Source: Anseongella ginsenosidimutans
Lineage (GTDB): Bacteria; Bacteroidota; Bacteroidia; Sphingobacteriales; Sphingobacteriaceae
Direction: 5' to 3'
DNA: 64,000 nt
Assembly: GCA_029268045.1 (NCBI GenBank)
Contig: JAJUHF010000002.1
Span: forward strand, 1 to 64,000
A program made the position numbers and the translations under genes. Below, in pieces: positions 951 to 52,496 of the stretch; the first letter of the stretch is position 1; each line of letters opens with the position of its first letter. The notes under the pieces are model-generated. The model saw only the letters and a program-made list of their open reading frames with translations, was not told the DNA's origin and ran no database searches.

Positions 951-955
951 ATTCG

Positions 956-1032
956 GCTTTAGGGGTATTCTGAAAAGGAATTGAGAAAGACCCTTTGAAC
1001 CTGATTCGGTTTATACCGGCGTAGGGAAAAGC
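956..1032 (+). promoter_or_regulatory. TPP riboswitch (THI element)
   Basis: The conserved THI core is present: AGGGGT near 961, TGAGA near 982, ACCCTTTGAACCTGAT around 990-1005, and ACCGGCGTAGGGAA at the 3' side. The closing helix P1 is GCTTT (956-960) paired with AAAGC (1028-1032). A short hairpin, CGGAC-GCATT-GTCCG, follows at about 1048-1062. No U-run is seen, so control is more likely at translation initiation of thiM than by intrinsic termination. In the known family, TPP binding represses thiamin synthesis and salvage genes. Confidence 0.92.
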
Positions 1033-1103
1033 ATCCAATCTTTTCTGCGGACGCATTGTCCGTATGCTCTCCTAAAAGCCATGTTTCATTGAAGACAAAG
1101 AAC

Positions 1104-51632: not shown

Positions 51633-51687
51633 GCCCCCGTGAATGGAATGCCCTTTTTAAAAAATTGCTATATTTCGGCTTTAAAAA

Positions 51688-51730
51688 ACAAAAACCCCCG
51701 TCCGCCGGGTGGCGAACTGCGGGGTTTTTT
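51688..51730. terminator. bidirectional terminator between the amidohydrolase and tRNA-like genes
   Basis: AAAACCCC (51691-51698) pairs with GGGGTTTT (51721-51728) and encloses an inner CGCC/GGCG hairpin. A-run and T-run on the two sides let it serve both converging transcripts. Confidence 0.8.
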
Positions 51731-51761
51731 GTTACCAATCAATAAACCTGTATGAAGTTAG

Positions 51762-51872
51762 CTGTAGGGGAAGGATTCGAACCTTCAAGGAGCGGTTGGT
51801 CCGTTTCCGGATTTTCCCGTGCTCTCCGCCACCGAGACAAGGAGGTGTGTTTGCCAATTCCACCACCCTACA
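51762..51872 (-). tRNA. atypical class II tRNA-like gene, anticodon by alignment GUC
   Basis: On the minus strand a full cloverleaf can be drawn: acceptor TGTAGGG/CCCTACA (7 bp), D-arm GTGGAATTGGCAAACAC as in bacterial tRNA-Leu, T-arm GAAGG-TTCGAAT-CCTTC (perfect). Anticodon stem CCTCC/GGTGG has one T-T mismatch; its loop TTGTCTC gives GUC with U, not a purine, at 37. The variable arm is about 42 nt, twice the class II norm, and folds as nested stems GGAG/CTCC, CGG/CCG and TCCG-GAAA-CGGA with a GNRA loop. First pair is U1-A72 and the discriminator is G. It has a consensus promoter and a terminator, so it is surely transcribed. Whether it is a working tRNA, a pseudo-tRNA or another RNA is open. 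Confidence 0.6.
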
Positions 51873-51887
51873 TTGTTATTGTTGATG

Positions 51888-51919
51888 CAAATGTAATACA
51901 AACCTGTATTCCTTGCAAA
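51888..51919 (-). promoter_or_regulatory. promoter of the tRNA-like gene
   Basis: On the minus strand TTTG (51919-51916), a 20-nt spacer and TACATTTG (51895-51888) match the Bacteroidota consensus exactly. The start site would be about 10 nt before the mature 5' end. Confidence 0.8.
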
Positions 51920-51992: not shown

Positions 51993-52496
51993 ATGATTGA
52001 AAAGACACTTCAGATTTTGCAAATTGACAATATCGACCTGCAGATCCTTTCCATCCTGATGAACGATGCCACCACGCCGTATACGGAGATCGCCAAGGAA
52101 CTCGTGGTATCCAGCGGCACCGTTCACGTACGAATGAAAAAACTCCATGAGTTAGGCATCGTTACCGGGTCCAACCTGCTGATCAATCCGCAGAAGATCG
52201 GCTACGACGTGTGCGCCTTTATCGGGATCTACTTGCAGAAGGGGTCGGAGTACCGCGACGCGGTGGAGAAAATGAAAGGCATCTCAGAAGTCGTGGAATT
52301 GCATTATACCACGGGGAACTACAGCATGTTCGCAAAGGTTATCTGCCGCGATACCAATCACCTGCGGAATGTACTGAACGAAAAATTGCAGGTCATCGAA
52401 GGAATCCAGCGGACCGAAACCATCATTTCACTTGAAGAGAGCATCAAACGCCAGATCAGCCTGGAAGATTACATCCAGGCCGGAAAGAAGAAATAA
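51993..52496 (+). CDS. Lrp/AsnC-family transcriptional regulator
   Basis: 167 residues. The HTH is QILSILMNDATTPYTEIAKELVVSSG (in two helices) with the recognition helix GTVHVRMKKLHELGIV; the RAM ligand/oligomer domain follows (KIGYDVCAFIGIYLQKGS; VVELHYTTGNYSMFAKVIC). AsnC-type regulators sense amino acids. Neighbouring genes are not amino acid genes, so the ligand cannot be inferred. Leader is AT-rich with no complete promoter match. Confidence 0.92.
   Translation: MIEKTLQILQIDNIDLQILSILMNDATTPYTEIAKELVVSSGTVHVRMKKLHELGIVTGSNLLINPQKIGYDVCAFIGIYLQKGSEYRDAVEKMKGISEVVELHYTTGNYSMFAKVICRDTNHLRNVLNEKLQVIEGIQRTETIISLEESIKRQISLEDYIQAGKKK

Follow-up and report, generated by a model that had tools for sequence, protein, structure and literature searches.

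Asparagine can be made on the tRNA that decodes it. This tRNA-dependent synthesis, which takes place on tRNA-Asn with a non-discriminating AspRS and GatCAB, is described in Deinococcus, Thermus, Staphylococcus and Bdellovibrio (PMC4206432). Many Bacteroidota encode GlnRS, AsnRS and GatCAB and no classical asparagine synthetase, and for these a survey could only suggest that asparagine is made on tRNA-Asn (PMC4206432). In Escherichia coli, asnA is activated by the regulator AsnC, an effect that asparagine weakens, and asnC is repressed by its own product (PMC8707732).

Here, we analysed a stretch of 64,000 nucleotides from Anseongella ginsenosidimutans (the window), in which a tRNA-like RNA gene stands beside a gene of the asnC type. 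We estimate a probability of about three in four that this RNA takes no part in decoding and is instead devoted to carrying the aspartate that AspRS loads and GatCAB turns into asparagine. It would take the place of an asparagine synthetase, and we infer that it is charged, amidated, relieved of its asparagine and regulated. It thus offers a specific, testable answer to the gene content of these Bacteroidota.

The RNA gene and its neighbour

The gene is on the minus strand (Table 1), and all the details of a cloverleaf with a Leu-like D arm, first read from the letters alone, are correct. In the tRNA-Leu frame, it has a class II architecture, a Leu-type D arm with G18G19 and a canonical T arm; CCA is absent from the DNA, as in most tRNAs of this genome. 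The oddities that had drawn attention to it are all confirmed, i.e., GUC on a class II frame followed by U37 and C38, the mismatch in the anticodon stem, U1-A72, the discriminator G73 and the 42-nt variable arm with a GAAA-capped hairpin. The ordinary tRNA-Asp(GUC) said to lie elsewhere in the window was found by the Rfam scan and by ARAGORN at 18769-18696. The window also encodes a TPP riboswitch (951-1044, plus strand, 79 bits).

Table 1. Features of the RNA locus, in window positions.
Feature	Position	Strand	Basis or detail
tRNA-like RNA gene	51762..51872	minus	complete cloverleaf, 7/5 acceptor/T stems, 111 nt; U1 at 51872, discriminator G73 at 51762
Acceptor stem, 5' half UGUAGGG, 3' half CCCUACA	51866..51872, 51769-51763	minus	U1-A72, G2-C71
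Anticodon arm CCUCC-loop-GGUGG	51829..51845	minus	sequence; U29-U41 mismatch
Anticodon loop UUGUCUC	51834..51840	minus	G34 U35 C36 at 51838-51836, U37, C38
Variable arm, 42 nt	51787..51828	minus	outer stem, 5' bulge, 3-bp stem, purine-rich internal loop, GAAA-capped hairpin
-7 promoter box TACATTTG	51888..51895	minus	TAnnTTTG enrichment upstream of homologues
-33 promoter box TTTG	51916..51919	minus	sequence; 20 nt to the -7 box
Intrinsic terminator, hairpin and U tract	51684..51740	minus	fold -25.2 kcal/mol, z = -2.9
asnC-type regulator gene	51993..52496	plus	divergent from the RNA, promoter region in common

The promoter and the terminator proposed in the sequence-only reading also hold: Bacteroidetes-type boxes precede the gene and a hairpin follows it. 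The motif TAnnTTTG is found upstream of 106 of 136 homologues (8.4 in shuffles), and the terminator may also serve the convergent gene. Many copies of the window's family, f1 (e.g., L103, L121, L031), have a conserved tail 3' of the RNA, TTTAGGTTTATAATTGGTTAGT, whose TGGTTAG could pair with CTAACCA in the variable arm.

The covariance-model check that had been proposed for the gene was positive: on its own, the sequence obtains 40.1 bits against the tRNA model of Rfam (RF00005), above the gathering threshold of 29. It is the lowest scorer of the 32 tRNA matches when this model is run on the whole draft genome, the Rfam scan of the 64-kb window did not pick it up, and default ARAGORN did not call it; when introns are allowed, ARAGORN reports a 'Phe with intron' that is an artefact. 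Annotation pipelines may thus overlook or misname this RNA family. Our own covariance model, R1, gives the gene 123.6 bits. Its single-sequence minimum free energy is ordinary (z -0.33), and the structural support therefore comes from covariation among homologues.

The best PDB match of the neighbouring protein is E. coli AsnC (2cg4, E 5.2e-40; Lrp reaches only 1e-11). AsnC is also its best NCBIfam family, at 185.8 bits and under the equivalog cut-off of 227, and we therefore call the gene AsnC-type rather than certified AsnC. A gene of the Lrp/AsnC family adjoins the RNA in 104 of 138 loci, always divergent and directly upstream (104/104), mostly at about 150 bp; families other than that of the window have such a neighbour in 23 of 40 loci. 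In the other class of the phylum where the RNA occurs, the AsnC-type gene (59% identity) is divergent from it too. No second conserved neighbour, e.g., an acceptor ligase, was found among the 138 loci, and no asnC was found beside asnA or asnB in RNA-less genomes. In E. coli, we take asnC to adjoin asnA.

Conservation and selection on the RNA

Of 56 good genomes from relatives, 24 gave homologues in a DNA search. With R1, copies were found in 98 of the 151 Sphingobacteriaceae genomes (GTDB family) with E <= 7e-22, and the remaining genomes yielded only ordinary tRNA-Leu with E >= 2e-11, which separates the two groups. Outside this family, covariance searches identified the RNA in 43 Bacteroidia genomes from 18 families, where copies score 68-108 bits and are at least 105 nt long (tRNA-Leu matches: 79-87 nt), and a second covariance model extended its range to a single family in a different class of the same phylum. 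Pedobacter and Mucilaginibacter account for most of the named records, and two copies often lie side by side.

Among 88 aligned copies, 21 of the 31 pairs changed on both sides, which exceeds all 500 shuffles and every slid structure; this alignment is partly fitted to the covariance model, and the MAFFT alignment A1 alone agrees, with 14 pairs. Compensatory changes affect several inner acceptor pairs, and all helices of the variable arm contain pairs changed on both sides. The variable region ranges from 37 to over 80 nt, with hairpins of varying length and a motif GGGAAA...UAACC in f1. The U29-U41 mismatch is constant in f1 and is C-G, A-U, G-C or G-U in other families. The comparison with homologues thus shows that relatives keep the odd features under strong selection, with compensatory changes. 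The RNA family is widespread in Bacteroidota, undescribed and not decaying; we found no report of it in the open-access literature.

Some loci have additional particularities. Five tandem copies are found at G005:C33:104500-105246 and at L075, with periods of 150 and about 370 bp. In Pedobacter loci, including L033, L048 and L065, a further paralogue has an arm of 67-76 nt; GGGUUGACCAC is present in most of its copies and recurs in distant families (L225, L237, L247). The copies at L232 and L233 are degenerate, with altered loop and stem and part of the anticodon loop deleted. At L312 (G012:C10:354500-357500), the gene is cut inside the variable arm beside an apparent tyrosine integrase gene, and thus seems to be an attachment site for a mobile element. 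Exact-pattern matches in scattered other taxa (named genomes) were discarded as chance matches with no cloverleaf, as were two in a scan of viral contigs, which lie in unrelated sequence and give no link to phages. The apparent RNA of genome G093 is a duplicated tRNA-Leu.

The bases kept across the class fall into sets with known roles. The strong determinants of AspRS are G73, G34, U35, C36 and C38, and GatCAB requires U1-A72 to amidate Asp-tRNA, with G1-C72 and U20a preventing the reaction (PMC9976931). U1, G2, C71, A72, G73, U35 and C36 are invariant in the 88 copies, C38 is present in 87 and G34 in 86, i.e., the RNA has the strong determinants of tRNA-Asp. All D loops read GGCAG or GGCAA and thus have no U20a; together with U1-A72 this gives the RNA the bases of a GatCAB substrate. 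The G1-C72 pair and the class I variable loop of tRNA-Asp are absent: U1-A72 is found in 88/88 copies and the variable region is long. In the host, tRNA-Asp has G1-C72 and GGUUAG, and tRNA-Asn has U1-A72. Neither do the copies belong with tRNA-Leu, since 86 of 88 have GUC and all have G73 rather than A73. The bases used in decoding are less constrained: position 33 is U in 78 copies, G in 8 and C in 2, and position 37 is U in 72, C in 8, G in 8 and never A. The U33 and purine 37 of elongators are thus not jointly kept, and the window copy has U33 yet U37. This pattern looks like selection for AspRS and GatCAB together with release from decoding.

Some observations go against a carrier or qualify it. 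AspRS normally meets G1-C72, whereas the RNA has U1-A72, and G10, presumably a minor AspRS determinant, is not conserved among the copies. In the AsnA-bearing family f48, G34 has become C in G318 and A in G208, which has also lost the long arm; this fits relaxed selection where AsnA is present, although the numbers are tiny; as a counter-case, G426 has U34 although it lacks any known asparagine synthetase. The armless relative (L281, G208:C23:55338-55413; AsnA-bearing genome) is 76 nt long, with the loop CUAUCUC, U1-A72 and G73.

Asparagine enzymes in genomes with and without the RNA

If the RNA is the substrate on which GatCAB makes asparagine, then GatCAB is expected even where translation needs none, and asparagine synthetase is expected to be missing. 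We surveyed 80 hand-chosen, related Bacteroidia genomes, 41 with the RNA and 39 without; the copies of two of the 41 (G262, G297) look degenerate. GatB is encoded in 41/41 RNA-bearing and 17/39 RNA-less genomes (Fisher 1.9e-9). GlnRS is present in 51 of the 80 genomes and AsnRS in 79, and where both are present translation does not need GatCAB. Yet among genomes with GlnRS, GatB is found in 27/27 of those with the RNA and 2/24 of those without (Fisher 1.8e-12). The other 15 RNA-less genomes with GatB have no GlnRS, which explains their GatCAB.

The presence of AsnRS in 79/80 genomes implies that free asparagine has to be made. Classical AsnB (NF006949) is found in none of the 41 RNA-bearing genomes and in 14 of the 39 others, and AsnA in 3/41 and 5/39, one of these five being just under the curated cut-off. 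The RNA-bearing genomes (GatB 41/41, AsnB 0/41, AsnA 3/41) thus have the gene content of the known tRNA-dependent asparagine pathway. Within the family of the window, GatB is present in 10/10 RNA-bearing and 2/12 RNA-less genomes, and AsnB in 0/10 and 9/12. AsnA is absent from six RNA-bearing genomes (G005, G018, G037, G297, G404, G426), whose matches to TIGR01536 are all weak. Most RNA-bearing genomes encode long AsnB-like proteins, which might make asparagine. Neither AsnA nor classical AsnB is encoded in 23 of the 39 RNA-less genomes, so there must be other routes or auxotrophies.

There are two exceptions. Genome G093 encodes GatB and GlnRS, the RNA was not found in it, and it fits none of the explanations given. 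The RNA-less G047 (L352, G047:C19:17500-22000) has a 1120-aa ORF in which GatB is joined to a second AspRS carrying an RDHG motif; we regard this as another solution to the same problem and as a natural control. The AspRS tree is poorly resolved and yields 3-4 independent contrasts with good support; each is neutral or goes the expected way, and together they do not reach significance.

The type of AspRS matters for the choice of substrate. The non-discriminating AspRS of P. aeruginosa has His at position 30 and an RDHG motif, and we take His30/Gly82 to be the mark of such enzymes. In comparisons with 1c0a and 4wj3, the AspRS of 25/25 RNA-bearing genomes have L, K or F at position 30 and K at 82; apart from the fusion protein of G047, every AspRS that we looked at is without His30, and nearly all have Lys82. 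Hence, tRNA-Asn is not an expected substrate of AspRS in RNA-bearing genomes. A non-discriminating AspRS in these genomes is unsupported, none of the 25 being of the His30/Gly82 type, and judging by these residues the enzymes look discriminating.

A proposed carrier for asparagine, its alternatives and known systems

We propose that transcription of the RNA begins in the promoter region common with asnC and that the transcript matures like a tRNA. The discriminating AspRS would charge it with aspartate through G34, U35, C36, C38, G73 and G2-C71. GatCAB would then turn Asp-RNA into Asn-RNA because, unlike tRNA-Asp, the RNA has U1-A72 and no U20a; these determinants and the co-occurrence with GatCAB are observed. 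Asparagine would be freed for AsnRS and metabolism. Since an asparagine-loaded RNA with the anticodon GUC would misread Asp codons, it would be kept off the ribosome, presumably by the non-A37, the dispensable U33, the U29-U41 mismatch (in one family) and the outsized variable arm. The AsnC-type regulator would sense asparagine and control the RNA gene in the way that AsnC controls asnA in E. coli. We lean towards seeing here a new class of metabolic RNA, in which a tRNA withdrawn from translation serves as a reusable scaffold for making a free amino acid and the conserved variable arm guides a transamidosome or the release of asparagine.

The sequence-only reading had also suggested a regulatory tRNA mimic. 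Such an RNA would be charged or bound by AspRS or GatCAB and sense the status of Asp, Gln or Asn for the AsnC circuit. This would account for the tight linkage with the AsnC-type regulator, for an elaborate conserved variable arm that is superfluous for synthesis, and for the short-arm form retained in G208 despite AsnA. We nevertheless regard it as unlikely: it explains neither the maintenance of GatCAB only with the RNA where translation needs none nor the absence of classical AsnB, it would leave six RNA-bearing genomes with no route to asparagine, and overall it explains less than the carrier. An amino-acid donor for non-ribosomal use was the closest of the earlier suggestions, since the kept bases are those of AspRS and GatCAB, but it missed the link to asparagine and the AsnC neighbour. 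In its strict form, where Asp or Asn is given to an acceptor in the cell wall, a lipid or a peptide, it suits a non-decoding yet chargeable design and is quite improbable, because asnC is the sole conserved neighbour, with no acceptor-ligase gene, and the loss of AsnB is not predicted.

A translating tRNA that places Asn (or Asp) at Asp codons, e.g., in adaptive mistranslation, is more doubtful still. Most copies do keep the GUC anticodon and U33, but 10/88 have G or C instead of U33, none has A at position 37, there are rare C34, A34 and U34 variants, the U29-U41 mismatch and variable regions of 37-80+ nt, and a normal tRNA-Asp is already present. G73 and a long arm are features read by SerRS, and GUC is common among allo-tRNA anticodons (PMC7609411). 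The RNA has all three, and could be a serine-accepting class II tRNA (allo-tRNA or selC-like). We give this very little credence: the stems are canonical 7/5, with covariation, instead of the 8/4 or 9/3 of allo-tRNAs and tRNA-Sec, the arm varies freely in length and sequence, and G208 lost the arm and kept U35, C36, C38, G73 and U1-A72. Finally, the decaying tRNA-Leu that had been suggested from the Leu-like D arm, the class II frame and the weak tRNA-finder match is refuted by conservation of the same odd features under selection in many families, where no ordinary tRNA-Leu takes their place, by compensatory changes, by the promoters and by the neighbour.

The proposed carrier can be set against four known systems. 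It resembles tRNA-Asp(GUC) in the AspRS determinants G34, U35, C36, C38, G73 and G2-C71, and differs from it in the class II frame, U1-A72, the absence of U20a and the non-A37. With allo-tRNAs and selC-like tRNAs, it has in common a long variable arm and an odd anticodon, including GUC; unlike them, it has 7/5 stems and a Leu-type D arm, and its distribution tracks GatCAB. As in E. coli asnC/asnA, an AsnC-type gene lies beside what would be a gene for asparagine supply, but the RNA gene occupies the place of the asparagine synthetase gene. The tRNA-Asn pathway is alike in the succession of AspRS and GatCAB, in U1-A72 and in the presence of AsnRS without asparagine synthetase (PMC4206432). There, however, the decoding tRNA-Asn is the carrier and AspRS is relaxed, whereas here AspRS looks discriminating and the carrier would be a separate RNA with an Asp anticodon that is apparently unfit to decode. 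If this is true, the RNA is a separate solution, one with a discriminating AspRS. We know of no other tRNA dedicated to making a free amino acid instead of decoding, and this one would then be the first known to be devoted to such a synthesis.
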